Source of the DNA: Panacagrimonas perspica
Lineage (GTDB): Bacteria; Pseudomonadota; Gammaproteobacteria; Nevskiales; Nevskiaceae
DNA length: 64,000 nucleotides
Reading direction: 5' to 3'
Assembly: GCF_004364935.1 (NCBI RefSeq)
Contig: NZ_SOBT01000009.1
Span: 147,994-211,993 of the forward strand
Shown here: one piece after another, positions 34,525-51,591 of the stretch
How positions within the stretch are numbered: position 1 is the first letter of the stretch
How the letters are laid out: each line of letters opens with the position of its first letter
Position numbers and translations under genes: made by a program
The notes under the pieces: generated by a model
The model's input: only the letters and a program-made list of their open reading frames with translations
Database searches by the model: none
Told to the model about the DNA's origin: nothing

Positions 34525-34570
34525 TTGACGCTCTCCGGGGCCTCCGATAGTTTTAATGAGCGTTGTTCAT
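34525..34570 (+). promoter_or_regulatory. pspA promoter with overlapping TetR-type operator
   Basis: TTGACG (34525-34530), a 17-base spacer and TAGTTT (34548-34553) form a sigma-70-like promoter. The imperfect palindrome ATGAGCGTTGTTCAT (34556-34570) covers the expected start site and overlaps a second dyad, GTTCATATTGAAC (34565-34577). Its reverse complement matches the site at 38898-38912 at 12 of 15 positions. Confidence 0.6.
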
Positions 34571-34594
34571 ATTGAACGCGAAACGGAGAAAACG

Positions 34595-35284
34595 ATGTCA
34601 CTGCTGGTCCGCATCCGGGAAATGGTGAGCGCCCACTCTCACCATGCCCTCGACGAAATCGAGAACCCCGAAGTCATGTCGCAGCAGATGCTGCGTGAAC
34701 TGGGCGACGATCTTGCGCGTGCCAATCACGCGCTGGTCACGGCGCTGGGCGCGGAGAAGCACTTGCTCCGTCAGCAGCAGCAGGCACGCGCTGAAGCCGC
34801 GGAATGGCAGTCGCGCGCCGAGCGCATGCTGGTCAGCAGTGGAGAAGCCCTGGCGCGGTCCGCGCTCGAGCGTGCGGTGGCGGCCGAGGCACGCGCTGCC
34901 GAGCAGGCAATACCGCTGGAAACGGCTCGAAAAGGTGTGCAACGCCTGCGTGATCAGACTGCCCGCCTGAAGGCGGAGTGGGAGCAGGCGCGCCTGCGCT
35001 GTGCCCAGATCGCCGCCAACCAGCAGGCCGCCGAAGCACTCGGCGCGGCCACGCGCTTCGGCGATCACTACAGCCGTGCGATGGATCGCGCACGACGTCT
35101 CGATCAGCTCACCCGCAAGTCGGCGACGTTCGATTGCCAGGCCGAGGCCGCGTCGGAACTGCTCGGCGAGCAGGAGAAGCTGGACTCGGAGATCGCGCGC
35201 GTCGACAAGGAAAACGCGGTGAACGACGCGATGGTCGCCCTCAAGGCGCGCATCGCGGCCCGCATCAATGGGTCAGCGGTTTGA
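34595..35284 (+). CDS. PspA/IM30 family protein (copy 1)
   Basis: 229 residues that are almost entirely heptad-rich helix, with the PspA N-terminus MSLLVRIREMVSAHSHHALDEIENP and the EQEKLDSEIARV tail. PspA proteins are peripheral inner-membrane proteins that form ESCRT-III-like polymers and repair or remodel membranes. No pspF, pspB or pspC adjoins, so control is not of the E. coli type. The ATG has a GGAG and lies 24 bases after the operator. The next genes are a small ORF and a YiaA-type gene. Confidence 0.85.
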   Translation: MSLLVRIREMVSAHSHHALDEIENPEVMSQQMLRELGDDLARANHALVTALGAEKHLLRQQQQARAEAAEWQSRAERMLVSSGEALARSALERAVAAEARAAEQAIPLETARKGVQRLRDQTARLKAEWEQARLRCAQIAANQQAAEALGAATRFGDHYSRAMDRARRLDQLTRKSATFDCQAEAASELLGEQEKLDSEIARVDKENAVNDAMVALKARIAARINGSAV

Positions 35285-35782: not shown

Positions 35783-36511
35783 ATGAGCACACCGCTCCTG
35801 GTCGCCGCAGTCGCCCTCGCGATGATGCTCGTCGAATGGATCGCTCCGGGTCGCCGCTGGCCGGCGATCCGGAGCTGGTGGCCACGCGCGCTGGCAGCCA
35901 ACGCGGTCCAGGCCGGTGTCGTCCTCGTCGCCGGCCTGAGCTGGGATCGCTGGATGCAGGGCAGGGCCCTGTTCGAGGCAGGCGCGGGTGGGATCGCCGC
36001 CGGCGCCGCGATCGGCTACTTCACGATCACCTTCGTCTACTACTGGTGGCACCGGGCCCGGCACGAGATCCCGTGGCTGTGGCGGCACCTGCACCAGTTT
36101 CACCACAGCGCCAGCCGCATCGAGATCCTCACCAGTTTCTACAAGCATCCCGCCGAGATGCTCGCGAATTCGGTGCTGTCGAGCGCGATCCTCTTCCACC
36201 TGCTCGGCCTGGATCCCGCGACGGGCGCGTTGGTGACGCTGATCACAGGGCTCGCGGAGCTCTTCTACCACTGGAACATCCGCACACCGCGCTGGTTGGG
36301 CTTCTTCGTGCAGCGACCCGAAAGCCATTGCGTGCATCACCAGGAAGGCAGGCATCGCAACAATTTCTCCGACCTGCCGCTGTGGGACGCGCTGTTCGGC
36401 ACGCTCGAGAACCCGCATCGCTTCACGGAACCCTGCGGACTGGGCCAACTCAACGAACTTCGCGTCTCCGACCTGCTGCGTGGCGTCGACGTGACGAGGA
36501 CGCCGCGATGA
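35783..36511 (+). CDS. Fatty acid hydroxylase / sterol desaturase family
   Basis: 242-residue membrane di-iron enzyme. The histidine clusters are WWHRARH, HQFHH and HCVHH with additional His/Asn in EGRHRNNFSD. The family hydroxylates or desaturates fatty acyl or sterol-like substrates in the membrane, but the substrate is not deducible. It is 11 bases after the YiaA-type gene and overlaps the next start (ATGA). Confidence 0.85.
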   Translation: MSTPLLVAAVALAMMLVEWIAPGRRWPAIRSWWPRALAANAVQAGVVLVAGLSWDRWMQGRALFEAGAGGIAAGAAIGYFTITFVYYWWHRARHEIPWLWRHLHQFHHSASRIEILTSFYKHPAEMLANSVLSSAILFHLLGLDPATGALVTLITGLAELFYHWNIRTPRWLGFFVQRPESHCVHHQEGRHRNNFSDLPLWDALFGTLENPHRFTEPCGLGQLNELRVSDLLRGVDVTRTPR

Positions 36512-37014
36512 ACACGCGCATTCTGGTCGCGGCCCTGCTGATCCTCGTCGGCACCCTGCAGATGGCCGGCGACCTGTTCGGCAGCACGGCCCTTCGGGCG
36601 CTCGGTGCGGCGACCGCCGCGTCGCCCGCGCCCAAGGTCTTCACGCGCCAGGGCGACGTGGAGACGTTCTCGGCACGCTTCTTCGTGGAGTGGACCGATC
36701 GCAGCGGTCGCCGCGTCACGACCGCGTTGACGCCAGAGAACTACGGCCACCTGCGCGGACCGTACAACCGGCGCAACACCTTCGGCGCCGCCGTCGCCGG
36801 CGCGCCGATGCTGCGTGCGAATCCGATGACCCGCGCGCTGTACGAATCGGTATCCAGCTATGCGCTGTGCGGCGACGCACCGCTGCTGCGGGAGATGGGA
36901 CTGGACCCTGATCCGCGTGGACCCGCCCCGGTCTTGCGCATCGAGCCGCGCGTCCCTGTCGCGGGCGAGTCACGACCGCAGCCCCTCGTCTTCGAGATGT
37001 GCAGCCATGCGTAA
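36508..37014 (+). CDS. Exported or anchored protein, unknown
   Basis: 168 residues with an N-terminal hydrophobic segment (ILVAALLILVGTLQMAGDLFG) and a soluble domain with few motifs (TPENYGHLRGPYNRRNTFGAA). The start overlaps the hydroxylase stop as ATGA, and its end overlaps the next gene by eight bases, so it is translationally coupled within the operon. No family is recognised. Confidence 0.6.
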   Translation: MNTRILVAALLILVGTLQMAGDLFGSTALRALGAATAASPAPKVFTRQGDVETFSARFFVEWTDRSGRRVTTALTPENYGHLRGPYNRRNTFGAAVAGAPMLRANPMTRALYESVSSYALCGDAPLLREMGLDPDPRGPAPVLRIEPRVPVAGESRPQPLVFEMCSHA

Positions 37015-38245
37015 CGGATGGACCGGTGGCCAGTACAGCGTCTTTCGCGCGCTGTTCGGCTCATACCTCTTCGTGCACTTCACGATGCTGCTGCCGTGGG
37101 GCGCCGAAGTGTTCTCGTCCGCGGGCATGGTGGCGGACGCGCACGCGAGCCCACTGATCGGCGTGTTCCCCAATGTCCTGGGCGTCCTCGACACGCCCGC
37201 TTTCGTCTCGCTGTTCCTCGTATCCGCGGCGGTGGCGTCGCTGGCCTTCGCCGTCGGCTCTCACGACCGCCTCGCCGCGCTGTGGCTCTGGTACGTGCTG
37301 GCCTGCCTGTTCGGGCGCAATCCGATGATCCAGAACCCGAGCCTTCCCTACGTCGGATGGATGCTGCTCGCACACGTCTGCCTACCCTCTGCACCCTACG
37401 GCTCCTGGGCCGCGCGGGGCCGCCTCGATCCCGCCAGCGGGTGGCGCCTGCCCGCCGCGATCTTCTTCGCCGCGTGGGCGGTGCTCGCACTCTCCTACAG
37501 CTACAGCGGCTGGACCAAGACGTTCAGCGAGTCGTGGACCGATGGGCACATGCTGGGCTTCGTGCTGCAGAACCCGCTCGCGCGCGATGGCCTGCCGCGC
37601 ACCGCCTTCCTCGCGCTCCCAGCAGCACTACAGGCGGCCGTCACACACGCGATCCTGTGGATCGAGCTGCTGTTCGCGCTGCTGGTGCTGTGGAGGCCGC
37701 TTCGCATTGCGGCGTGGACGGCGATGCTGATCGTGCAGTTCGGCTTCGCGCTGCTGCTGGATTTCGCCGACCTCACCTGCGCGATGCTGCTGGTGCACCT
37801 GCTGACGTTCGATCCCGCCTGGATCCGCGGCAGCGCGCCCACCGCGGTCGAGACGATCTTCTACGACGGGCAGTGCGGCCTGTGCCACCGCGTCGTGCGA
37901 TTCGTGCTCGCGGAGGATGCCCACGCCGTCTTCCGTCTCGCGCCGCTCCAGGGAACGGCATTCGAACATGCGCTACCGGCCCCGGTGCGCGCGCGACTAC
38001 CAGACTCTTTCCTCGTGCTCACGGCTGATGGGCGCGTAGCGTCGCGTTCCGACGCCGCCATCCACGTGCTCGAGCGTCTGGGCGGCCTGTGGCGCATCGC
38101 AGGTGCAGCCTTGCGGCTCGTTCCGCGAACCTGGCGGGACCGCGCCTACGACGCGATCGGCCGGAACCGGCACGCCCTCTTCGCCCGGCCCATCGCCGCG
38201 TGCCCGCTCACTCCGCCGCACTTGCGCGGGCGGTTCCTCGCTTGA
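37007..38245 (+). CDS. HTTM-type membrane protein fused to DCC (DUF393) thioredoxin-like domain
   Basis: 412 residues. The first 270 form about eight membrane helices resembling vitamin-K-dependent-carboxylase-like HTTM proteins. The C-terminal part begins ETIFYDGQCGLCHRVVRFVLAED, the DxxCxxC motif of DUF393, which names the DCC family. Such fusions are predicted redox or lipid-handling membrane proteins without known activity. It is the last gene of the pspA operon and overlaps the 3' end of the convergent tetR gene by 38 bases. Confidence 0.8.
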   Translation: MRNGWTGGQYSVFRALFGSYLFVHFTMLLPWGAEVFSSAGMVADAHASPLIGVFPNVLGVLDTPAFVSLFLVSAAVASLAFAVGSHDRLAALWLWYVLACLFGRNPMIQNPSLPYVGWMLLAHVCLPSAPYGSWAARGRLDPASGWRLPAAIFFAAWAVLALSYSYSGWTKTFSESWTDGHMLGFVLQNPLARDGLPRTAFLALPAALQAAVTHAILWIELLFALLVLWRPLRIAAWTAMLIVQFGFALLLDFADLTCAMLLVHLLTFDPAWIRGSAPTAVETIFYDGQCGLCHRVVRFVLAEDAHAVFRLAPLQGTAFEHALPAPVRARLPDSFLVLTADGRVASRSDAAIHVLERLGGLWRIAGAALRLVPRTWRDRAYDAIGRNRHALFARPIAACPLTPPHLRGRFLA

Positions 38246-40284: not shown

Positions 40285-40608
40285 ATGACGAGCTGGATCA
40301 TCCTGGGCCTGGCCGGCCTGCTGGAAGTCGTATTCGCCGTTGCGCTCAAACAGAGCCGCGGCCTCTCCCACTTGCCGATGGCCGTGCTCGCAGGAATCGC
40401 GATGCTGTGCAGCCTGACGCTGCTCGCGCTCGCGATGCGCTCGATTCCGGTCAGTGCGGCCTACGCGATCTGGACCGGTATTGGTGCCGTGGGCACCGTC
40501 GTGGCGGGCATCCTGCTGTTCGGGGAAGCCGCATCGGTCCTGCGGGTGACGAGCCTGAGCCTGATCCTGGCCGGGATGGTCGGTCTCAAGCTCGGCGCGG
40601 ATGCCTGA
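40285..40608 (+). CDS. gdx: Guanidinium exporter Gdx (SugE), SMR family
   Basis: 107-residue four-helix small multidrug resistance protein. It carries the essential Glu in helix 1 (LAGLLEVVFAVALK, E14) and the family block AYAIWTGIGAVGTVVAGILLFGE. Guanidine-II control places it in the guanidinium/proton antiporter subgroup and not the quaternary-ammonium EmrE subgroup. It works as an antiparallel homodimer in the inner membrane. Confidence 0.93.
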   Translation: MTSWIILGLAGLLEVVFAVALKQSRGLSHLPMAVLAGIAMLCSLTLLALAMRSIPVSAAYAIWTGIGAVGTVVAGILLFGEAASVLRVTSLSLILAGMVGLKLGADA

Positions 40609-40635: not shown

Positions 40636-41088
40636 CTACTTTCGCGCGGTCTCGGCGGCCACTTCACGCAACGCGTCGATGTTGCTGATGCGTGCGATGT
40701 TCTGCATGAGCTGGTCGGCGACGGACTCTTCCATCGACAGCGTCGCGGCCGCCGGCACGCCGAGCGCGTCGGCGAAACCGCGGATCTTCTCGCGCTCGTT
40801 CGTCGAATAACGTCCGTCTGCATAGGCCAGCAGCAGGCAGGAGCGCAGCAGGGCGGCCTTGCGGTCCGGGGTGCCGAGGATGCGCTTGGCCTCGTCGAGG
40901 TCGAACGGACCGCGACCCAGTTCCTCGAAGCTGGTCAGCGCGCCGGTGTCACGCTGGCAGGCGCCGTAGAACTCCCGAAGCATCACCGCCTCCGCGTCGT
41001 GCACGCCGTCCAGCTTCGCCACCTCGTGCATGGCGCGCACGATGACCTGGATGTGGTTGATGCCGAGTTCGGTCGCTTCGGTGCTCAT
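40636..41088 (-). CDS. TerB-like protein, last gene of the PspA/AAA operon
   Basis: 150 residues, all helical, resembling the TerB/DjlA-type metal-binding fold: MHEVAKLDGVHDAEAVMLREFY near the start and SCLLLAYADGRYSTNEREKIRGFADALGV in the second half, each with an acidic loop. TerB proteins are cytoplasmic and linked to envelope-stress complexes. It is 28 bases after the AAA+ gene. Confidence 0.75.
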   Translation of the reverse strand: MSTEATELGINHIQVIVRAMHEVAKLDGVHDAEAVMLREFYGACQRDTGALTSFEELGRGPFDLDEAKRILGTPDRKAALLRSCLLLAYADGRYSTNEREKIRGFADALGVPAAATLSMEESVADQLMQNIARISNIDALREVAAETARK

Positions 41089-41116
41089 GGTTTCTTCGTC
41101 CTGTATGCGTGACGCA

Positions 41117-42958
41117 TCAGCGGATGCGGAGTTCAGCCTTCAGCTCGCGCAGGCGCGCCTGGAGGTCTTGCAGCGAAAGGTTCTGGTACTTCACCGGCAG
41201 CATGCTGCGACGCGAGGCCTCGAACACGGCCTGCAGATCCATGTACTCGATCATCGCGAGATCGCGCGTCGGCATGTAGTCGCTCATGGCCTGTGCAAAG
41301 ACATCGGCATCGACCGCTCGGTTCTGCTCGCGCGAAAGATTCAGGGCCAACAGCGTGACGGCCTCGAGGTCGGCGTTCGAATATCCGACGAGCTTCGCGC
41401 TGGTCTTCTCGCGCGCCGTCGGCCAGTCGATCGTGCCCAGCTTGTGGCGCTTGAACAGCGACGCCAGGATCAACTCGACTTCGTCGGCGGTCTGCGCGTA
41501 GAAGAACGGAATCTTGCGATCCAGACGCCCGGCGCGCTTGATGTCGATGTCCAGCTTGTCCGGCCGGTTGGTCATCAGCACGAACAGCACGACACCGCGG
41601 TTGTCGGTGTCGCTCATGAACTCCTTGAGGCGCGCGATCACGCGCGACGAGGTGCCGTCGTCGCCGCCGTCCTCGCCCGCACTGCCGAAACTGCGGTCGC
41701 CCTCGTCGATGACCAGCACGATCGGCCCGAGTGCCTTGACCATGCCGAGCACCTTCTCGAGGTTGGATTCGGTGGAACCGACCCACTTCGAGCGGAAGTT
41801 CTTCAACGTCACGGCCGACAGGCCCGAGGTGTGCACGAAAGCCTTCGCGACGAACGTCTTGCCGGTGCCCATCGCACCGACGAACAGCATGCCCATCGGA
41901 CAGCGGGTGCGTTCGCCGGACTTCACCGCGTCGGCCACCTGCATCAGCTCGGCCTTGATCGCCTCGTTCCCGCCCACCGCGTCCAGCCCGTGGCTCGAAT
42001 CGAAGAATTCGATCAGGCCCGCGCATTCCTTCTCGATGATCTCGCGCTTGCGACGATGCACCAGCTCCAGCACCTCGGCGTAGGGATCCTGCGCAGCGGT
42101 CTCGGGCAGCGGCTGATCCGGATTGATCAGGTGCCGGATCTCGTCGACGTCCATGCCACGCGTGATACCGGCGAGCTTCGCCGCACGCGCGGACGAATCC
42201 GCCGTGTTTCCGAGCAGGCTGACGATCAGCGCGGTGCGCTCCGCATCGCCCAGGCCGCCGCTGTCCTTCGGCGTCAGGAACTGCGCGATCTGGACGGCGC
42301 GCAGGCCCGAGGTGTGCTCGGCCAGACGCGAGAGCTGCTTGTCGTCGATGTTCTTGTCGGCATGCCGGATGACCGCGGCACGCGCCTCGCGATCGGGCAG
42401 CGGGATTTCCACCGCACCGACCCGCGGATTCGACACGAGCTTGGGATGCACCTCGGCCAGCGATTCGGACAGCAGGAACACGACGCTGTCCTTCTCGGCC
42501 AGCGCATCCGACAGCGACCAACGATGCAGGCGCACCACGTTCACGCGATCGCCCTGCGAGAGGAAATGCTCGTCGCCGGGAGGCACGATGCTGCCGGCAT
42601 ACGACAGGATCACCGCGGTCGGCTCGCTTCCGTGAAGCTGACCTTCGAGATAGGCGAGCGGATCTTCGTTGCCGAGCGCGGCGAGCAGTTCTTCGGACTT
42701 CTCGCTGCCGCCCTTGACGAAGCGAACCTTGCTCGCCGGATCGTAGGTGAGGATGCGCGCCTTGTTGTCCCACAACAGCACGCGCGCCAGGAATTCCTCG
42801 AGCGCCCAGAACTTGCCGTCGTAGAGCACGCGGTCGAAGACGTTCCGGTGCAGCAGGAACATCGAGGCTTCGCCGCCGAGGTACTTGCGCCGCACGGCCT
42901 CGGCCCACTTGGGCAGCGCCGGCTTGTCCTTGGCGACCGACACCGTCTTGCCGTTCAC
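41117..42958 (-). CDS. AAA+ ATPase with degenerate and active AAA domains
   Basis: 613 residues from the GTG at 42958. The first 240 residues look like an AAA fold without a Walker A. The second domain is complete: Walker A GAMGTGKT (361-368), Walker [10 protein letters not shown] (D418, E419), sensor N464 ([10 protein letters not shown]) and arginine-finger region [10 protein letters not shown]. The layout recalls Ycf46-type proteins and, functionally, Vps4. It lies 16 bases after the PspA gene and is the probable motor acting on PspA polymers. A start further upstream would overlap the PspA gene. Confidence 0.85.
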
Positions 42959-42974
42959 GGGGCGTGCGCGCGCG

Positions 42975-43691
42975 TCACATCTGCTTGGTGCCACCAGCCT
43001 GCGCCGTAGCGGCCGCACGCTGTCGCTTCATTTCCTCGAGCTGCGCCTTGGCGGTGACCGAACCGCTCTGCGACTGCAGCTTCTTCAAGCGCACGTCCAG
43101 ATCCGATTCGTGCAGTTCCTTGCCCAGACTGGCCTGCGCGACCGTCGTCTTGATGTGCTCGCGCACCTTGTCGAGGGCCTGCACGTCGGCATCGACCGAC
43201 AGACCCTCGAGCTGGTTCTGGATCTGGATGCGCGCCTGGGCCGACTGCATCTTGGCGAGCATGCGGTCCTTCTCGGCCTTGAGCTTGCCGATCTCGCTCT
43301 TGACCGCCATCAGCGAACCCTTGGCATCGTCGGCATCGGCAGTGGCCTGCCCGGCCTCGCCCGTGAGATCGGCGAGTTCGGCGTCCAGCGCGTTCTTCTT
43401 CTGGATCAGCACCAGCGCCAGATCGTCCTGGCCGGTGGCCATCGCGGCATTCAGATCACTGGTGACCTGCGCGAGCGCCTTGGAGGCGATGTCGACGCGG
43501 CCGCTGATGTCGTCACGCCGGCGGATGATCGCGGCGGTGGCGTACTTGAGCTTCTCGTACTTGGCCGTCAGACCCATGATCGAGTTCTCGTACGCGATCT
43601 CGGGATGATTCTTCTCGACGTCCGAGATCCACAGCGAGATGAAACCCTTCCAGAGATTGCCCAGTCGGGAAAACAGGTTGATGTCGGCCAT
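42975..43691 (-). CDS. PspA/IM30 family protein (copy 2)
   Basis: 238 residues beginning MADINLFSRLGNLWKGFISLWI, an amphipathic helix suited to membrane binding, then long coiled-coil helices (about 30-215) and an Ala/Gln-rich tail ending GGTKQM. It is divergent in sequence from the pspA at 34.6 kb and has no psp regulators. By family it should polymerise on membranes like ESCRT-III. It sits directly upstream of the AAA+ gene. Confidence 0.82.
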   Translation of the reverse strand: MADINLFSRLGNLWKGFISLWISDVEKNHPEIAYENSIMGLTAKYEKLKYATAAIIRRRDDISGRVDIASKALAQVTSDLNAAMATGQDDLALVLIQKKNALDAELADLTGEAGQATADADDAKGSLMAVKSEIGKLKAEKDRMLAKMQSAQARIQIQNQLEGLSVDADVQALDKVREHIKTTVAQASLGKELHESDLDVRLKKLQSQSGSVTAKAQLEEMKRQRAAATAQAGGTKQM

Positions 43692-43747
43692 TTCGATGTC
43701 CCTCAGCGTCGTTCGTTGAAAGCGGTCAAATCATGCACGCGGCGATG

Positions 43748-44176
43748 TCAGGCGGCCGCGGTGCGGCGCCGCGCCCACATCTTTGCGTATCCGGCATACG
43801 ACAGATACAGAAGCAGCAGCGAGACCGCGCAGACCACGAGCAGTCCCAGCGCCCAGATCATCAGCGAAGTGGCGCGCAAGGCGTCGAGCATGAACGCGGT
43901 CTGCTCGGGTTCGCTGAAGACCCACAGGAACAGCGACACCATGACGGCCGATACGAGCAGGCTCGCGACGAGCGAGCCTGCGACCAGCACCGTCATCTCC
44001 TGCCGCGTCGGACGTCGCTGCCGGTCGCTGAGGAACCAGCCCATCGCGACGAAGGCGCCTCCGATCAGAGCCACGACCGACCCGAACGAACCTATCGGCA
44101 CGATGCGCGCGAGCAGGGCGCAAAGGCCGATCGTTGCGGCGTAGCCGATCGCGAACAGCACGAGGTACTTGCTCAC
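43748..44176 (-). CDS. Four-helix membrane protein, unknown
   Basis: 142 residues with four hydrophobic segments (about 4-24, 30-50, 65-90, 105-128). The pattern resembles small ABZJ_00895-type membrane proteins. The start is GTG (44176). It lies between the heme-oxygenase-like gene (25 bases) and the PspA gene (56 bases), so it is part of the operon and may be the membrane anchor for PspA. Confidence 0.6.
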   Translation of the reverse strand: MSKYLVLFAIGYAATIGLCALLARIVPIGSFGSVVALIGGAFVAMGWFLSDRQRRPTRQEMTVLVAGSLVASLLVSAVMVSLFLWVFSEPEQTAFMLDALRATSLMIWALGLLVVCAVSLLLLYLSYAGYAKMWARRRTAAA

Positions 44177-44201
44177 GGGGCGATCGTTCCGGTGGCTCGG
44201 C

Positions 44202-45077
44202 TCAGGTGGGCTGGTTCACGCGCGTGAAGAATTCCTCATGGTCCGCCGCGAATGCGCGGAAGCCCTTGTGGATCTCGCGACGCAGCTCGTCGTGCAGCTC
44301 GGGTACCACGTAGCGGAATGCGAGGCGCGCGCCGCGCGTGGCCCACTTGAAATGATCCGCCTCCGCGCCACCGCCGTGTCCCGAATGGATCGACACCCAC
44401 TGGTAGGCGACGTGATCCTGGCCGGCGATGTTGACCTTGTGCTGACGCAGGAACTCGGTCATCTCCGGCGCGCCTTCGCGCATCGTCTGGTCGATCAGCG
44501 AAAATTCCTGATCGGCCAGCAGCTCGGATCCCAGGTGGTAGCCCATGCTGCGGAACGCAGCCGGAAGATCATCCGGCGTACCCGCACCATATCCGTGCGC
44601 AACCTGCGCATTGAGCGTGCGCAGCCACATCGGCTCGCGCAGCAATTCGTTCAGCGCGTTCGTGTCCTTGAACGCATCGACGCCTCGGCCGGCGTACCAG
44701 TCGATCAGTCCCTTGAGCGTGGACTGCGCCAGGCAGCGATGCGTGTCCCGATGCACGGTGTCGCGATCGTCGAACTCGTCGCGCGCGGCGTCGAAGAAGA
44801 AGCTGGCGACATAGACGCTGCGATCCGCCAGTTGCTGGACCGGCTGCTGCGGGTCGAGGAACAGGCCGCGGCAGCGGCCCAGCTTGCCGGCCAGCGTCGC
44901 GACCGCGGAGCCGAAGAAGCCGTTCCAGCTCGTATAGCGGCCAAAAAAACGTACGAAACCTTCGGGGTCACGCAGCGACGAGGTCAGCGCCTCGCGCACG
45001 CGCGCTTCGGCGGCGTCGAAACTGGAAAGTCCCTTGAGTTCTTCGATGGTGATCGCGGTGGCGACGTTGACGGTCAT
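44202..45077 (-). CDS. Helical protein, possibly heme-oxygenase-like di-iron fold
   Basis: 291 residues, mostly helical. The stretch GSELLADQEFSLIDQTM and the His-rich HSGHGGGAEADHF separated by about 50 residues resemble the ligand spacing of heme-oxygenase-like diiron (HDO/CADD-like) proteins. This is weak evidence and the family is not assigned. No signal or membrane helix is seen. It is 15 bases after the preceding gene in the operon. Confidence 0.5.
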   Translation of the reverse strand: MTVNVATAITIEELKGLSSFDAAEARVREALTSSLRDPEGFVRFFGRYTSWNGFFGSAVATLAGKLGRCRGLFLDPQQPVQQLADRSVYVASFFFDAARDEFDDRDTVHRDTHRCLAQSTLKGLIDWYAGRGVDAFKDTNALNELLREPMWLRTLNAQVAHGYGAGTPDDLPAAFRSMGYHLGSELLADQEFSLIDQTMREGAPEMTEFLRQHKVNIAGQDHVAYQWVSIHSGHGGGAEADHFKWATRGARLAFRYVVPELHDELRREIHKGFRAFAADHEEFFTRVNQPT

Positions 45078-45092
45078 GGTGGCGCGGCCTCG

Positions 45093-45950
45093 TCAGTGCT
45101 TCGTGGCAGTTGCCGGCCGCGACGCGAGTCGCAGCGGAATGTCGCCCATTTCGGCATCGAGCTTGGAGTCCAGCTCCGCGTCGATGTGAAGGCGATCCAC
45201 CGCCTCTTGCAAACGCGAGGCCACATCGCCCGCCGTCGGCGACGTGATGGCCGCGGTGTAGATCTCTTCCACCGCGTCCGGCAACCCGATCATCGCGGCA
45301 TCGACCACGGTCTTGCGCCGCGCCAGGCGCTCGGCACGCTTGACCAGTTCGTCGAGGTCGGCCTTGGCCTTGCGCAAGGTCACGTCGTCCGGATTCTTCT
45401 TCAGACGTTCCTCGGTCTGGTAGTGCTGCTTGTTCAGACCCTTGCTGCCTAGCGAATCGAGGCGGTCGCTGATCGACAGTTGCGTGAGCCACAGCGAGAG
45501 ATAATCCATCGCCGCGTCTTCGAGACGCTCGAGGTCGCGCTCCGTGATCACGTCCTTGCGATGCTTGCGCAGATCCTGGATAGAGGCCACGCGATCGAGC
45601 ATCCGCTGGTAGACGCCCCAGTTGTCGTCGTCACGCATCGCCAGCCGTTCGATCTGCTTGCGCAGATGCTCGACGAAGGCAGCGCGCTTCTTCGCGCGGA
45701 TGCGACGGTCGATCAGATTGCGGAAGGTCTGCGACGAGGGCACGAACATCGATGCGATGGCTTCGCCCGCACCGAACAGCACCAGCGGAATCGCAGCGCC
45801 CGCCAGCCCCAGTGGAATCGCCGCGACGGCAGCCGTCGCGAGCGCCGCGAGGCCCGCCGTGACGTTGGTCTGCGTCTTGAGCATCTCGCCGACGTACGAG
45901 GGCTTGTCCTCGTCCAGACCGCGATGCCAGGTTTTGGGCTCGTCCGACAT
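45093..45950 (-). CDS. Membrane-hairpin and coiled-coil protein, unknown
   Basis: 285 residues with a hydrophobic hairpin near residues 30-70 (VTAGLAALATAAVAAIPLGL, then IPLVLFGAGEAIASMF) followed by charged helices to the end. It looks like an inner-membrane protein with a large cytoplasmic coiled domain. The ATG overlaps the ABC ATPase stop as TGATG, so translation is coupled. No known family. Confidence 0.6.
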   Translation of the reverse strand: MSDEPKTWHRGLDEDKPSYVGEMLKTQTNVTAGLAALATAAVAAIPLGLAGAAIPLVLFGAGEAIASMFVPSSQTFRNLIDRRIRAKKRAAFVEHLRKQIERLAMRDDDNWGVYQRMLDRVASIQDLRKHRKDVITERDLERLEDAAMDYLSLWLTQLSISDRLDSLGSKGLNKQHYQTEERLKKNPDDVTLRKAKADLDELVKRAERLARRKTVVDAAMIGLPDAVEEIYTAAITSPTAGDVASRLQEAVDRLHIDAELDSKLDAEMGDIPLRLASRPATATKH

Positions 45951-46774
45951 CACACCGTGACGGTCAGCTCGCCGCGACCCGGGTTTGCCGCGTGCAGGAT
46001 GTTGAGGATGCGCTCTTCCATCTTCACCGCCTCGGTCGAGCGGGCCCAGATGGCCGAACGCGGACGCGGCTCGGTGATGCGAAAGTCGTCCGCTACACGC
46101 GCAGGCTGCGTCGACAGCGTGATCACGCGGTCGCCCAGCGTCAGCGCCTCGGTCACGTCGTGCGTGACGAACACAATCAGGCAGGGCTGCATCTCGTAGA
46201 GCTTCACCAGCAGGGCCTGCATCTCCTGGCGGATCTGCGCATCGAGCGCGGAGAACGGCTCGTCCATCAGCAGGATCCGCGGACGCAGAACCAGCGCGCG
46301 CGCCAGCGCCACGCGCTGGTTCTGACCGCCCGAGAGCTGTGCCGGCAGCAGGTCATGCTTGTCCGCCAGTCCTACGGCCGCAAGGATGTCAGTGATGCGC
46401 TTTTCCGACTCGGCCTTGGGGACCTTCTTCTTCCACAGCTTCATGCGGAAGGGGAAGGCCACGTTCTCGCGTACCGTCAGGTCCGGCCGGTTCGAGTAGC
46501 GCTGGAACACCATCGCCGCATCGTCGTGCGCGCCGTCGCAGGGCTTGCCGTCGATCAGCACCGTGCCGGACGTGGGCGTCGGTACACCGATCGGGCGCAC
46601 GCCACCCATCATTCGAAGAATCGTGGATTTTCCGCAGCCCGACGGCCCGAGCAGCATGTTGATCCCGGGCTCGTCGAACGCCAGGCTGATCTTGTCGCAG
46701 ACGCGCGTGACGCCCTTGCCGTCCGGCTTCGGATATTCCTGGACGATGTCCTTGATCTCGACCGAGATGCTCAT
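45950..46774 (-). CDS. ABC transporter ATP-binding protein (nitrate/taurine type)
   Basis: 274 residues with Walker A LGPSGCGKST, Q-loop VFQRYSNRPDLTV, signature LSGGQNQRVALARAL, Walker B ILLMDEPFSALD and H-loop FVTHD. It belongs to the nitrate/sulfonate/taurine importer subfamily. It powers the permease encoded 37 bases upstream. The odd partner is an OmpA-fused binding protein. Confidence 0.9.
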   Translation of the reverse strand: MSISVEIKDIVQEYPKPDGKGVTRVCDKISLAFDEPGINMLLGPSGCGKSTILRMMGGVRPIGVPTPTSGTVLIDGKPCDGAHDDAAMVFQRYSNRPDLTVRENVAFPFRMKLWKKKVPKAESEKRITDILAAVGLADKHDLLPAQLSGGQNQRVALARALVLRPRILLMDEPFSALDAQIRQEMQALLVKLYEMQPCLIVFVTHDVTEALTLGDRVITLSTQPARVADDFRITEPRPRSAIWARSTEAVKMEERILNILHAANPGRGELTVTV

Positions 46775-46811
46775 GCGTGATCGCGTCCGGTGAAGAGGGT
46801 CGTACGCGCGA

Positions 46812-47624
46812 TCACTGCTGCGTCTCCCAGGGGAACAGCTTGCGCTTGATCATCTGCATCAGCTGATAGGTGATCAGCGCCAGCGCGATGATCACGATGA
46901 TGCCGGCGAACACCTGGTCCATCGCCGAGAAGCGCCGCGCGTTCTGGATGAGCTGGCCCAGGCCTTCGCGCGCATTCACGTATTCGGCCACGGTGATATA
47001 GGTCCACATCACGGAGGTCGCGACGATCACGCCGTCGGCGATGCGCGGCATCGCCATCGGCAGCACCGCGAGGCGCACCGATTCCCAGGGCGTGGCGCCG
47101 AGATCGCGCGCGGCGATCCAGTGCGATTGCGGCACCGCCTGCATCGCGTCGCGCACCATCGGAATCAGGTACACCACCGCGCCGATGAACAGGAACACGA
47201 CCTTCATCGACTCGCCGATGCCGAACCACATCACCATGATCGGCAGCAGCGCGACCACCGGCGCCGACCGGAACGGATCGATCAGCGGCGACAGCACGGC
47301 GTTGATGCGCGGACTGGCCCCCATGATCACGCCGATCGGAATGCCGATCAGCAGGGTCAGCACGAACGCCGACAGGATGCGGCCGACCGACCACATCGTC
47401 GCGGTCAGCAGCAGGCTGCGCTGATTCTCGGCATCCCAGGCCAAATAGACGAAAGCCTCGGCCACTTTCCACGGCGCCGGCAGCTTGTTGGGCCCGACCA
47501 GCGCGAGCGCGGCCGCCACGGCCCAGATGCCCAGGACCAGCAGCACGCTGCCGATTCCGAGCCCGCGGCGCAGGCCAGGGCTCAGCGGCGTGTACGGATT
47601 CCAGAGACTGCGATCGTCCGACAT
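46812..47624 (-). CDS. ABC transporter permease
   Basis: 270 residues with six predicted helices and the importer-type EAA loop (RDLGATPWESVRLAVLPMAMPRI). It belongs to the nitrate/taurine/bicarbonate permease family. It lies 13 bases downstream of the binding-protein gene and 37 bases upstream of the ATPase gene. The substrate is not deducible. Confidence 0.9.
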   Translation of the reverse strand: MSDDRSLWNPYTPLSPGLRRGLGIGSVLLVLGIWAVAAALALVGPNKLPAPWKVAEAFVYLAWDAENQRSLLLTATMWSVGRILSAFVLTLLIGIPIGVIMGASPRINAVLSPLIDPFRSAPVVALLPIMVMWFGIGESMKVVFLFIGAVVYLIPMVRDAMQAVPQSHWIAARDLGATPWESVRLAVLPMAMPRIADGVIVATSVMWTYITVAEYVNAREGLGQLIQNARRFSAMDQVFAGIIVIIALALITYQLMQMIKRKLFPWETQQ

Positions 47625-47637
47625 CGGAGCCAGGTCT

Positions 47638-49353
47638 TCAGCGCGTGAACACGGCGACGCGCGTCGTGCGGTTCGTCGCGCGGCAATCCTCGAGCGTCAG
47701 GTTCTCGCCACCCGGATTGCGCTCGTCGCAGATCGGGCGATCCGGCCCGTGGCCCACGACCTTGAAGCGCTCGGCCGGGAAGTCCCACTGCTTGACCAGG
47801 TAGTCGACGACGGCCTGCGCGCGCGCCTGCGACAGGCGCATGTTGTTGTCGTGTGCGCCGGTCGAATCGGTGTTGCCGGAGACCTCGAAATAAGCCGACC
47901 CGTTGTTCTCGATGAAGGGCACCATCTCTTCGTCGATGGTCTTCTCGGCGCGCTTGTTCAGCGACGCCGCACCGGTCGGGAAGCCGACGGTGACCGGCTT
48001 GGTCACCTGCGGCGCGGTCTGCGCGGCCGCTTCACGCTGGGTCTCGGTGAACGTGAACTCCGGCTTCTCGGCCGCCTTCTGCGCGGCCTGGTTCTGCGAG
48101 AGCAGGCTCTTGATGAAGCGGTAGTCGAACGAGTCCTGCGGGTTGATCACCGGCGAAGCGGGATTCGCCAGCGCGCCCGCGGCACGGTAGATGCCGTCGA
48201 AGCGGCGGTACACGCGCTCGTAGTGATTGGTGGCGCCAGCCAGGCCCAGGATGCGGGCGTTGTCGTCCAGGCCCGTCCACACCACGTTCGAGAACAGCGA
48301 TTTCACGAACGGCTTTCCTTCGTCCTTGGCCAGCAGCGAGAAGAACTCCTCGGTCTTGACCAGTGCATCGACCGCATCGTCCGGGTTGGCCCGCGAGGCT
48401 TCGACGCCCTTCATCCAGCCACCGACGAAAGCCTGGAATGCCGGCACGTTCTCGGTCTTGGACAGTGCGCGCTGGTCGCAGACCATCACGTCATAGATCA
48501 GGTTGGTGGCAGTCTTGGTCGAGTAGACGACGTGCGCACCCGGAATCTTCTTCAGCGCCAGCGCGAGATCCGGATCCCACAGCGCGGCCGCGTCGACGTT
48601 GCCGCTCTCCAGCGCAGCGCGTACGCCAGCCGTGCCTTCCTCGGCGTTGATGTAGACGTACTTGACCGTCGCCTTCTTGCGCGCGGTCAGCGAGGAATTG
48701 TCGACAGCGTCGATCGTCATGCCGTCGCTGGGCGTGTACTGCAGCAGCGCCACGCTCTTGCCGGCGAGATCCTCGACGCGCTGGATCGACGGATCGCGCG
48801 CGATGATCGCGTCGCCGCCCTGCGTGTTGTCGACGATCATCACGGCGCGGCCGTCATGGCCGGCGTTGCGCAGGTTCGGCTGTTCCTGCGCCCAGAAATC
48901 CGAGGTGCGCCACGCGCAGTGCGCGGTGCCGGATTCGAAGATCGTCGTCAGCGTGGGGATGTCGTCCTGGACGATCAGTTCGAGATTGAGCCCTTCCTTG
49001 TCGTAGATCGAACCCGACTGGGTCTTGAGCGATTTGCCGTTGGCGACGATCGCCGGCGCATAACCGTGGAAGCTGACGATGCTCACCTTCAGCGGATTGC
49101 CCTCGGAGCCCAGAGGCCCGGACACCTTGCCCGACTTGCGCTCCGGTGCCGCGGTCGCCGACTCGCTGGCCTTGTCCGAATCGGAGTTGCCGCCGCCGAA
49201 GGAGGGCCACTTCGATGCCTTTTCCTCGATGGGTGCCCCGCCCTGCTGGCCGGCCAGCATGTCCTTCAACCCGAGATGCCAGACCGCCGCGGCGGCCCCG
49301 CCCAGGATCGTGATCGTGATGAGCCCTTTAGCGAGGGGAGTCAGGCGTGCCAT
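47638..49353 (-). CDS. Membrane-anchored substrate-binding protein fused to OmpA domain
   Basis: 571 residues. An N-terminal anchor (GLITITILGGAAAAVWHLGL, about 10-29) precedes a linker, then an NMT1/SsuA-type periplasmic binding domain (about 85-400) and a C-terminal OmpA-like peptidoglycan-binding domain (about 450-571) with SGNTDSTG and NMRLSQARAQAV. Fusion of an ABC binding protein to an OmpA domain would tether the ABC complex to the cell wall. It could report on envelope state more than import a nutrient. Confidence 0.88.
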   Translation of the reverse strand: MARLTPLAKGLITITILGGAAAAVWHLGLKDMLAGQQGGAPIEEKASKWPSFGGGNSDSDKASESATAAPERKSGKVSGPLGSEGNPLKVSIVSFHGYAPAIVANGKSLKTQSGSIYDKEGLNLELIVQDDIPTLTTIFESGTAHCAWRTSDFWAQEQPNLRNAGHDGRAVMIVDNTQGGDAIIARDPSIQRVEDLAGKSVALLQYTPSDGMTIDAVDNSSLTARKKATVKYVYINAEEGTAGVRAALESGNVDAAALWDPDLALALKKIPGAHVVYSTKTATNLIYDVMVCDQRALSKTENVPAFQAFVGGWMKGVEASRANPDDAVDALVKTEEFFSLLAKDEGKPFVKSLFSNVVWTGLDDNARILGLAGATNHYERVYRRFDGIYRAAGALANPASPVINPQDSFDYRFIKSLLSQNQAAQKAAEKPEFTFTETQREAAAQTAPQVTKPVTVGFPTGAASLNKRAEKTIDEEMVPFIENNGSAYFEVSGNTDSTGAHDNNMRLSQARAQAVVDYLVKQWDFPAERFKVVGHGPDRPICDERNPGGENLTLEDCRATNRTTRVAVFTR

Positions 49354-49380
49354 GGTCGAATCCTCGGGGTACGGCGGGAT

Positions 49381-50085
49381 TTAAGAAGAACGGGGCGCGG
49401 CCGGAGCTGCGGCCGGCGCAACGAAGGTGTCGAGAACTTCCTGAAGACGCACGATCTCGGTGTCGAGGCGGGCGGACTCGCGCATCGAGGCCTCCTGCGC
49501 CGATTTCACCTCGGCGCCCAGCGCCGCCTTCTCGGCGGTCGCCTTCTCGACTTCGCGCTGCATCAGGGCCTCGAGATCGCCGATCTGCTGGCGGATCGCG
49601 GCCAGTGCGTCGGCCTGCCGCTGCTCGCGCGCCTTCAGACGCTCCTGCGCATGCGCCGCCTGGCTCGCCGCCTGCTGCACCAGCAGCGCCTTGGTGTCGT
49701 TCAGCGCCTTGATCTTGCGGCTGGCGTCCAGCGCCGCGTCGTCGATGGTCCAGTTGTCGTCGGCGGCGTCCATCGCCAGCACGGCCGCCTTGCGCACCGG
49801 CGGGTCCATCGCCCGCAGGCCGTCCAGCAGCTTGAGCAGCTTCTCGGCGGGGAACGGCGACGAAGGAACGCCACGCTCGGCGTAGAGGACCTCGAAGGAG
49901 CGGCTTTCCTCGATCCGGCTCTCGGACTCCGAGAGCACGGCCGTAGAGGGCACCGAAGGCTCGGGTGCCGATCCCTCCAAGGGCACTTCGGCCAGCACTT
50001 CGGATTCGAGGCTGGCGGGCACGTCGACAGCGGCATCGGCTTCGACCAGCCCCGCTTTTTGAAGCACACGAAGGAACTTGCTCAT
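49381..50085 (-). CDS. Coiled-coil protein, first gene of the PspA/AAA operon
   Basis: 234 residues. A Ser/Glu-rich acidic N-terminal half precedes a helical region SPFPAEKLLKLLDGLRAMDP and a long heptad-rich coiled coil (about 120-215, many QAAHAQERLKAREQRQAD-like runs). The tail is Ala/Pro rich. No signal or membrane helix, so cytoplasmic; it may be an adaptor for the AAA or PspA proteins. The ATG at 50085 has GGAGG four bases upstream. Confidence 0.7.
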   Translation of the reverse strand: MSKFLRVLQKAGLVEADAAVDVPASLESEVLAEVPLEGSAPEPSVPSTAVLSESESRIEESRSFEVLYAERGVPSSPFPAEKLLKLLDGLRAMDPPVRKAAVLAMDAADDNWTIDDAALDASRKIKALNDTKALLVQQAASQAAHAQERLKAREQRQADALAAIRQQIGDLEALMQREVEKATAEKAALGAEVKSAQEASMRESARLDTEIVRLQEVLDTFVAPAAAPAAPRSS

Positions 50086-50174: not shown

Positions 50175-50969
50175 TCAGCGCTGGATGTTCCGCCCGTAGA
50201 AGACTTCCATGATCTCGTGGTTGACGCGATCGCGGATGCGCTTGGCTTCGCGCGGAGGCAGTTCGGAGACGCCCTCACCGAACAGGTACGTGTCGAGGTC
50301 CAGTTCCTTGAGCCGCATCTTCGTATGGAAAATGCTCTCCTGGTAGACGTTCACGTCGACCATGTCGTAGCGGTCGCGGATGCCACGCGAGATGAAGTTC
50401 TGGATCGAGTCGATCTGGTGGTCGATGAAGTGCTTCATGCCGCGCACGTTGCGGGTGAAGCCGCGCACGCGGTAGTCCATCACCACGATGTCGCTCTCGA
50501 AGCTCTTGATCAGGTAGTTCAGCGCTTTCAACGGCGAAATCTTGCCGCAGGTGGACACGTCGATGTCTGCGCGGAAGGTGCTGATGCCCGAGTCCGGATG
50601 GGTTTCCGGATAGGTGTGGACCGTGATGTGGCTCTTGTCCAGGTGCGACACCACCGATTTCTTCTTCGCGCTCGGCGTCGGCAGGCCATCGAGATGGCCT
50701 TCCGAGATCAGCATCGTGACGCTCGCACCCTGCGGATCGTAGTCCTGGCGCGCGACGTTCAGGATGTTGGCGCCGATGATGTCGGCCACCTCCGTCAGGA
50801 TCGCGGTCAGTCGCTCGGCGTTGTACGCCTCGTCGATGTACTCGATGTACTCGCGGGTGTGCTCCGCGCTGCGGGCGTAGCAGATGTCGTAGATGTTGAA
50901 CGACAACGACTTCGTCAGGTTGTTGAACCCGAGCAGCTTGAGCTTGGGATTGCTGGTGGGTTTGGCCAA
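50175..50969 (-). CDS. speD: S-adenosylmethionine decarboxylase proenzyme
   Basis: 264 residues of the E. coli-type SpeD, which makes decarboxylated SAM for spermidine. Self-cleavage occurs at K112-S113 in [15 protein letters not shown], turning S113 into the pyruvoyl cofactor. The C-terminus [10 protein letters not shown] matches the family. The order speD, OsmC-like and Clp/Crp is shared with xanthomonads. Confidence 0.96.
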
Positions 50970-50999
50970 TCGGGTCTCCGGCGTCGACTAAAGCGCAGC

Positions 51000-51021
51000 A
51001 CGCCCCGTGCGTCCGGGGCGT
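51000..51021. other. Perfect hairpin in the speD leader
   Basis: ACGCCCCG and CGGGGCGT pair perfectly around a 6-base loop, 31 bases before the speD ATG. It lies between OsmC-like and speD on the same strand and lacks a T-run toward speD. It may be an attenuator or the 3' end of the OsmC-like message. A CATAAT -10-like box lies at 51038-51033. Confidence 0.35.
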
Positions 51022-51077
51022 TTCAACGCCGAATTATGGACGAGGTTCGTGACGTTCGTGCGCAATGCCCAGCGGGA

Positions 51078-51500
51078 TCACGCCACCGGACGGATCTCGA
51101 ACGAGTGCGTCACGTTCACACCGCCCCTTTTGAGCATGATCGAAGCCGAGCAGTACTTGTCCGCCGACAGGTCCACAGCCCGCTTGACCTGGTTCTCGCT
51201 CAGCCCGTCCCCGCTGATGACGAACTTGAGATGGATGTCGGTGAACACCTTGGGTTCCGTGTCGGCGCGCGTCCCTTCGACCTCGACGTAGCAGTCCTTC
51301 ACCGGCTGCCGGGCTTTCTTCAGGATGTGGATCACGTCCACCGCCGAGCAGGAGCCCACCGAGAGCAGCATCAGTTCCATGGGCCGCGCACCCAGGTTGC
51401 GGCCGCCGATTTCGGCTGGCCCGTCGATGACCACCGCGTGGCTGCTACCGGTTTCGCCGACGAACGCTGCGTTTTCGACCCACTTGATACGCGCCTGCAT
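51078..51500 (-). CDS. OsmC/Ohr-like peroxiredoxin-type protein
   Basis: 140 residues with the two redox cysteines of the family, C51 in VGSCSAVDV and C117 in DKYCSASIM. The MQARIKWVENAAFVGE start is typical of the YhfA subgroup of OsmC proteins. The role is probably reduction of organic hydroperoxides. It is divergent from the Clp/Crp gene, a conserved pairing. Confidence 0.85.
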   Translation of the reverse strand: MQARIKWVENAAFVGETGSSHAVVIDGPAEIGGRNLGARPMELMLLSVGSCSAVDVIHILKKARQPVKDCYVEVEGTRADTEPKVFTDIHLKFVISGDGLSENQVKRAVDLSADKYCSASIMLKRGGVNVTHSFEIRPVA

Positions 51501-51591
51501 GATTTTCGTTCCGAAGGGTTTTCTTGATCGCCGGACAATTGTGCTAGTTTCAGTGAAATCAAGGCACAAGCTGCAGGCTACGGGGGTGGGG

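Follow-up and report, generated by a model that had tools for sequence, protein, structure and literature searches.

Do ten closely packed genes in a bacterial genome form one system and, if so, which of them belong to it? This question is raised by a block in the soil bacterium Panacagrimonas perspica, located at 40636-50085 of a 64,000-nucleotide stretch of contig NZ_SOBT01000009.1 (positions 147,994 to 211,993; hereafter the window). Its genes, numbered g1 to g10 in the direction of reading, encode a coiled-coil protein (g1), a solute-binding protein (SBP) fused to OmpA (g2), an ABC permease and ATPase (g3 and g4), a membrane-hairpin protein (g5), two further proteins (g6 and g7), PspA/IM30 (g8), an AAA ATPase (g9), and a TerB family protein (g10). 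An earlier note, made from the sequence of the window, had read them as an operon in which an ABC complex tethered to peptidoglycan senses the state of the envelope and feeds PspA remodelling driven by the AAA motor, with the disassembly of ESCRT-III by Vps4-type AAA ATPases as background. We report here that the genes are supported as one system by their conservation in several lineages, that the PspA protein ends in a near-invariant tail, and that the receptor is exchangeable. We consider it probable, if far from certain, that this is one envelope system, in which a wall-tethered receptor controls a PspA polymer and the AAA motor dismantles this polymer by the PspA tail.

Results

Conserved gene order in several lineages

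A scan of ~85,000 species genomes with an alignment of the AAA protein yielded 443 stretches encoding relatives. The best 80 of these 443, each with up to 10 kb per side, were examined together with two distant loci, and the resulting 82 loci (besides the window) were searched with profiles for each of the ten proteins. As this set was picked by AAA similarity, all counts are conditional on the AAA gene; in addition, kindred genomes (many of them Accumulibacter) do not count as independent, lineages are labelled after record titles, and many loci are truncated by contig ends. A close relative is a Panacagrimonas metagenome-assembled genome (locus L015), with 92% identity in the AAA protein.

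Proteobacterial loci display the order g1-SBP/OmpA-permease-ATPase-g5-PspA-AAA-TerB, which is found in Betaproteobacteria (Accumulibacter, Propionivibrio, Tepidiphilus) and Desulfuromonadales and, with g6 added, in Rhodanobacteraceae/Lysobacterales-type loci. The order in Acidobacteriota is PspA-SBP/OmpA-permease-ATPase-g5-AAA, with TerB and g1 not found in most of these loci. Among Myxococcota/delta-type loci, two read PspA-SBP/OmpA-permease-ATPase-g5-AAA-TerB and one AAA-TerB-PspA-SBP/OmpA-permease-ATPase-g5. Because conserved orders recur in several lineages, the block is more than a chance arrangement. Indeed, co-conservation outside this strain, to which the earlier note had looked for support of its single-system reading, was found.

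Flanks of ≥7.5 kb upstream and ≥2.5 kb downstream were available for 49 loci. Of these, 47 had a detected PspA gene, 45 the SBP/anchor gene, 40 g5, 38 the ATPase, 36 the permease, 30 g1, 30 TerB, six g6, and none g7. Over the whole set, g5 is present in ~66 of 83 loci and g1 homologues occur in ~36 loci besides the window. As g6 is confined to nine loci, it is accessory. Among the genomes examined, g7 was found only in P. perspica, and it is absent even from the same-genus block (L015). The shared system is thus smaller than ten genes, g6 and g7 being local additions.

A retained anchor on exchangeable receptors

The g2 protein consists of a short N-terminal peptide predicted to be cytoplasmic, a hydrophobic helix (segment 7-29), the SBP, and the OmpA domain. 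The anchor, i.e. an LTP[LF]xK motif followed by the transmembrane (TM) helix, is kept in Proteobacteria and in most Acidobacteriota loci, also when the periplasmic part is exchanged. In ten Hydrogenophaga/Rhodoferax/Polaromonas-type loci (hereafter comamonad-type), permease and ATPase are absent between the g2 position and g5. The gene at the g2 position in these loci bears the anchor (MASLTPLSKGL...AVWHL.LK) on a small protein with a weak Sel1-like repeat, and a peptidoglycan-binding (PG_binding_1) and PotF-like solute-binding protein stands in for SBP-OmpA/ABC. The latter protein also occurs in two loci cut by contig ends (L070 and L094). Two distant compact loci, L010 (7248-12324) and L011 (6795-11942), encode PspA, AAA, a hairpin protein, and SBP/OmpA, with no ABC genes in the cluster. 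A second SBP-OmpA-type gene was seen upstream in L036.

As judged from these sequences, the receptor is exchangeable, its anchor surviving on a different periplasmic domain, and the system can do without the ABC pair. What the versions have in common is not an importer but a solute-binding protein bound to the wall, plus a membrane anchor. The peptidoglycan-tethered ABC complex that the earlier note described is therefore present here, as SBP-OmpA with permease and ATPase, but does not extend to the comamonad-type and L010/L011-type loci, where the ABC pair is missing. That the receptor can be exchanged suggests a role in sensing or tethering, beyond import alone, for its solute-binding parts in the periplasm.

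Could import nevertheless be the purpose, with PspA and the AAA protein protecting or energizing the membrane around an importer of a specific solute? The ABC ATPase motifs are intact, the permease is well conserved in ABC-type blocks (median identity of 68% to g3 of the window), and Ravi et al. (2024, mSystems, PMC11237479) suggest that remodelling is linked to solute transport. Against this, ABC-less versions retain the core and use a wall-bound solute-binding protein of another family (PotF-like), and their genomes encode no orthologous permease elsewhere, the closest reaching ≤36% identity. We therefore regard a true transporter as quite improbable.

Co-occurrence and correlated divergence of the core

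Among 150 genomes from the order of the Rhodoferax locus L047 (G561), the PspA subfamily and the AAA protein were found in exactly the same four, where the two genes lie side by side, ~50 bases apart. Among 398 genomes of the phylum of the window, two encode close PspA relatives, and the same two encode a close full-length AAA orthologue; two further genomes have a distant AAA relative only. Within the order of the window, the AAA gene is present in two of 61 genomes, both of its genus. This sparse distribution suggests that the system spread by horizontal transfer.

Protein distances correlate with those of AAA at 0.97 for g5, 0.95 for TerB, 0.93 for g1, and 0.91 for PspA, and at 0.77 for the SBP and 0.75 for permease and ATPase. 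These values were reached in none of 500 permutations for any pair, although they still contain species relatedness. The pattern is that of a tight core and a looser receptor module.

The looser tracking by the SBP and ABC genes would fit two independent neighbours, a standard ABC importer of the sulfonate/taurine type lying beside a PspA stress operon, and PspA-AAA occur without receptor genes in L017, L019, and L056. However, in Acidobacteriota the SBP, permease, and ATPase genes lie between PspA and AAA, and this interleaving counts against two adjacent separate operons. Moreover, the SBP carries an inner-membrane anchor and an OmpA domain, unlike ordinary importers, and the anchor persists without SBP or ABC in comamonad-type loci. 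Two separate units are thus a very improbable explanation. Gene order, interleaving, PspA/AAA co-occurrence, and correlated divergence all uphold the one system proposed in the earlier note, whereas its fixed set of ten genes does not stand.

A near-invariant C-terminal tail on PspA

In 70 of 72 AAA-linked PspA proteins, a variable stretch rich in Ala and Gln leads up to a terminal [K/R]-x-[M/L/I]-COOH, with KTM (27), KSM (16), KTL (8), and KQM (7) among the variants; the same count holds for the wider class [KR]-x-[MLIV]. The motif is found in all 29 beta, all nine delta/myxo, eight of nine gamma, and 21 of 22 acidobacterial loci. Of the loci that depart from it, the acidobacterial one seems to have a broken ORF (open reading frame) and the gamma one is the distant L011. 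Four PspA genes retrieved with a PspA query, rather than the AAA query, likewise bear it. As a control, 28 PF04012 matches were sampled from elsewhere in the class; a single one had the same ending, and it comes from a doubtful reading of 123 residues. The window itself contains a second PspA/IM30 gene (34556-35284, plus strand), 5.4 kb from the block and on the opposite strand, whose product scores nearer classical PspA and ends in GSAV, without K-x-M. The tail is unlikely to be a by-product of the start of the next gene, because the gene that follows PspA in Acidobacteriota is SBP-OmpA and the final position may also hold Leu or Ile.

Since ESCRT-III tails are read by Vps4, the PspA tail is, by analogy, likely to be a handle for the AAA protein. 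We found no published report of a near-invariant PspA tail or of an exchangeable receptor.

A Cdc48-like AAA motor

Walker A, Walker B, and the RxGR fingers are intact in the C-terminal AAA copy of g9 in 83 members. The pore loop KWVG is also conserved, but its invariance is overstated because KW was part of the search pattern. PF00004 matches the C-terminal copy only, and no conserved Walker A pattern is seen in the N-terminal half among the 83 members. We take this half to be a degenerate copy of the AAA domain rather than an MIT domain; the AAA fold assigned to it rests on Ravi et al. (PMC11237479).

The best-ranked solved structures for the active domain are VCP/Cdc48 (with D2 nearest), NSF, Afg2, and Nvl/Rix7, and no Vps4 is present among the 60 solved structures listed. 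Because there is no MIT domain and the nearest structures are of VCP/Cdc48 type, a Vps4-type label is unjustified and membership of g9 in that group was dropped, while g9 may still work like Vps4. The idea of AAA-driven PspA remodelling fared better, since an intact AAA site and a conserved tail on PspA are in line with it, but it had already been published as a genomic prediction.

The Cdc48 family is known for membrane-protein extraction. A Cdc48-like AAA could thus be an assembly or quality-control chaperone of the receptor/ABC complex, with PspA only recruiting this AAA protein to the membrane; the tail, as an adaptor, would then be a docking tag rather than something to thread. However, PspA-AAA(-TerB) are retained where ABC and SBP genes were not found nearby (L017 and L019), in two core-only genomes (G566 and G210) that have no TauC-like permease. 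We hold this unlikely, albeit worth keeping in mind.

Distant AAA relatives (25-31% identity) are encoded on Bacillota megaplasmids (L012, L013, and L014) among mostly hypothetical neighbours. With this different setting and no annotated PspA neighbour, they were rejected as members of the same system. In L092, two AAA-family genes lie near each other. Membership of g10 in the TerB family, together with weak IetA and MotB/ZorB-like matches, might point to an anti-phage or tellurite defence island, but these matches involve nothing beyond generic AAA and OmpA domains, no plasmid was found with a close AAA or SBP-OmpA relative, and no defence genes were recognized beside the block within the window. 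We give this explanation hardly any credence.

The hairpin protein g5 and the accessory protein g6

By its co-occurrence, g5 appears to be a core component. Its AlphaFold2 model (predicted local distance difference test (pLDDT) of 83) consists of a membrane hairpin and long cytosolic helices, with no confident fold match in the PDB. A reading of g5 as a second ESCRT-III/Snf7 protein was not supported, as there is no Snf7/PspA Pfam match in 61 members and hhalign against PspA gave a probability of 1%. The "Snf7 homologs with a TM segment" of Ravi et al. may be g5.

The g6 model (pLDDT of 84) backs the earlier call of a heme-oxygenase-like protein, its best PDB matches in Foldseek being PolF, HamA, a TenA homologue, BesC, and CADD (probability 1.00, E-values of 1e-3 to 5e-2). 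The alignment contains seven invariant Glu/His residues (E101, H113, H181, E191, H222, H231, and E239). The H-x3-D-x2-H pattern of known heme-oxygenase-like diiron members is absent from it. The predicted fold suggests that g6 is possibly a diiron enzyme. It shares this fold with PolF, BesC, and CADD, but with only ~11-15% identity and in a context unrelated to known pathways.

Layout and neighbourhood of the block

ORF calls on the window confirmed ten minus-strand genes with gaps of 56 bases or less and one TGATG overlap, as the earlier note had stated; from g1 to g10 the gaps are 27, 13, 37, -4 (TGATG), 15, 25, 56, ~19, and 28 bases. Its protein identities (SBP-OmpA, permease, ATPase, PspA, AAA, and TerB) were likewise borne out by family scans, in which the named domains of g2, g3, g4, g8, g9, and g10 exceeded the Pfam cut-offs (for example, 68.8 bits for g8 against the PspA_IM30 profile, cut-off 33.9, and 34.9 bits for g10 against TerB, cut-off 24.4). 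These scans matched g1, g5, and g6 to no curated family. When the region was scanned against shuffles, no sigma-70-like promoter and no excess of terminators were found.

Table 1. Genes and sequence elements of the block in the window, and loci with the anchor on a Sel1-like protein
Feature	Position	Strand	Description
g1	49381..50085	-	Soluble; conserved N-terminal peptide, YPAEKLLRLLDGLRAMD...ADDNW domain, C-terminal coiled coil
g2	47638..49353	-	SBP (NMT1/SsuA type, residues 117-327) fused to C-terminal OmpA domain (458-548), inner-membrane-anchored
g2 N-terminal anchor	49246..49353	-	MARLTPLAKGL...AVWHLGLK; LTP[LF]xK motif and transmembrane helix
g2 OmpA domain	47710..47982	-	Pfam PF00691, E 1.9e-13; peptidoglycan-binding
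g3	46812..47624	-	ABC permease, TauC/SsuC type (family scans)
g4	45950..46774	-	ABC ATPase; intact Walker A, Walker B, signature
g5	45093..45953	-	Two-helix membrane hairpin (~residues 28-70), then cytosolic helices; ATG at 45950, TGATG overlap with g4
g6	44202..45077	-	Heme-oxygenase-like fold, possibly diiron enzyme; accessory
g7	43748..44176	-	Small membrane protein, family ABZJ_00895 (NF038216); accessory
g8	42975..43691	-	PspA/IM30, Pfam PF04012; subfamily tied to AAA gene
g8 C-terminal tripeptide	42978..42986	-	Lys-Gln-Met here; candidate recognition tail for AAA motor
g9	41117..~42955	-	AAA ATPase: degenerate N-terminal copy and predicted active C-terminal copy; GTG start uncertain
g9 pore-loop motif KWVG	41777..41788	-	Invariant or nearly so in 83 members; KW within search pattern
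g10	40636..41088	-	TerB family, Pfam PF05099
Anchor on Sel1-like protein	L044, L047, L067, L075, L077, L082, L084, L086, L090, L093		

Just upstream, on the same strand, lie genes for SpeD (AdoMet decarboxylase, polyamine synthesis) and OsmC (50175-51524). SpeD was rejected as a system member, as ORF maps show a SpeD-sized ORF before g1 in the same-genus locus and none there in most other blocks; its position beside OsmC and a Crp-type ORF is, we assume, an ordinary neighbourhood. Together with the PotF-like, polyamine-type binding protein of the comamonad versions, SpeD makes a polyamine thread possible but weak. A small multidrug resistance (SMR) transporter gene (40285-40608, plus strand) is convergent with the end of the block. 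Further away, a gene for a membrane protein with a C-terminal DCC1-like thiol-disulfide domain (36860-38245, plus strand) lies downstream of a fatty-acid hydroxylase gene (35783-36511).

Discussion

Ravi et al. reported that PspA can co-occur with a two-AAA protein, the N-terminal AAA of which is inactive, and that longer operons include an ABC ATPase, a permease, and a PBPB-OmpA protein, from which they suggested ATP-dependent remodelling tied to solute transport. Because that paper (PMC11237479) contains both the association and the remodelling proposal, the central idea of the earlier note was already in print as a genomic prediction. The present block matches that description, PspA adjoining the AAA protein and the genes for the ABC ATPase, the permease, and SBP-OmpA belonging to one predicted operon. 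In contrast, TerB is absent from the main text of that paper, nor did we find g1, g6, the motif at the end of PspA, the retained anchor, or the version with PG_binding and PotF but no ABC genes described in it. The present analysis adds the tail and a receptor that can be exchanged while its anchor is retained. It also adds the interleaved gene orders, the observation that PspA and AAA strictly co-occur in the genome sets sampled, and the regular membership of TerB and g1 in Proteobacteria. No experimental account of the system was found in the open-access literature.

In the single envelope system that we favour, the cytoplasmic core would comprise PspA, as an ESCRT-III-like membrane polymer, a dedicated Cdc48-like AAA protein, and g5, with g1 and TerB in Proteobacteria. 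The receptor (here SBP-OmpA and ABC), with its anchor in the inner membrane and its tether to peptidoglycan, would report a periplasmic solute or the state of the wall, signalling beyond any role in import. This signal would presumably run from the receptor inwards, via the conserved anchor and g5. The AAA motor would grip the C-terminal tail of PspA, thread it, and pull subunits from the polymer, so that PspA coats would be built and removed in response to the receptor.

Several points weigh against this reading. The SBP and ABC genes track AAA less closely than the core does, which is expected of an exchangeable module but equally of looser coupling. A few loci (L046 and L056) lack detected PspA or receptor genes nearby. 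In L010 and L011, PspA has RSMG inside the tail rather than the exact C-terminal motif, even though it is encoded beside a related AAA protein. It is conservation that points to recognition of the tail by AAA, and the tail could instead bind g5, g1, TerB, or lipid. Pfam detects no MIT domain in g9. Finally, the model is built from sequence and predicted structures.

The system resembles ESCRT-III/Vps4 (Cdv in archaea) in that an ESCRT-III-superfamily polymer protein, with a conserved C-terminal element, is encoded with a classical AAA protein. It differs in that this AAA protein lacks an MIT domain and is closest to Cdc48 D2, and in that the tail is a tripeptide rather than an MIM helix. As in classical psp systems (pspFABC, lia, and clgR-pspAMN), PspA would be the membrane effector, but the block encodes no PspB/PspC/PspF or LiaF-like partner and has a motor in place of a transcription-factor ATPase. 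Cryo-electron microscopy of PspA rods (PMC11746142) led its authors to suggest, by analogy with Vps4, disassembly "by chaperones or PspF."

A more specific proposal, which we put forward tentatively as a serious possibility, is a tail-recognizing PspA disassembly machine made of a Cdc48-like AAA, a K-x-M tag, and interchangeable peptidoglycan-tethered receptors on one conserved TM anchor. If true, this would be a separately evolved analogue of ESCRT-III/Vps4 that has a substrate tag of its own and takes its input from the periplasm. For a possible turnover of bacterial PspA polymers by an ATPase, the block offers a candidate for a dedicated motor, pinpoints three residues to mutate, and supplies membrane proteins that may feed in the signal. 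Cultured bacteria that carry the system include Hydrogenophaga taeniospiralis and Tahibacter.

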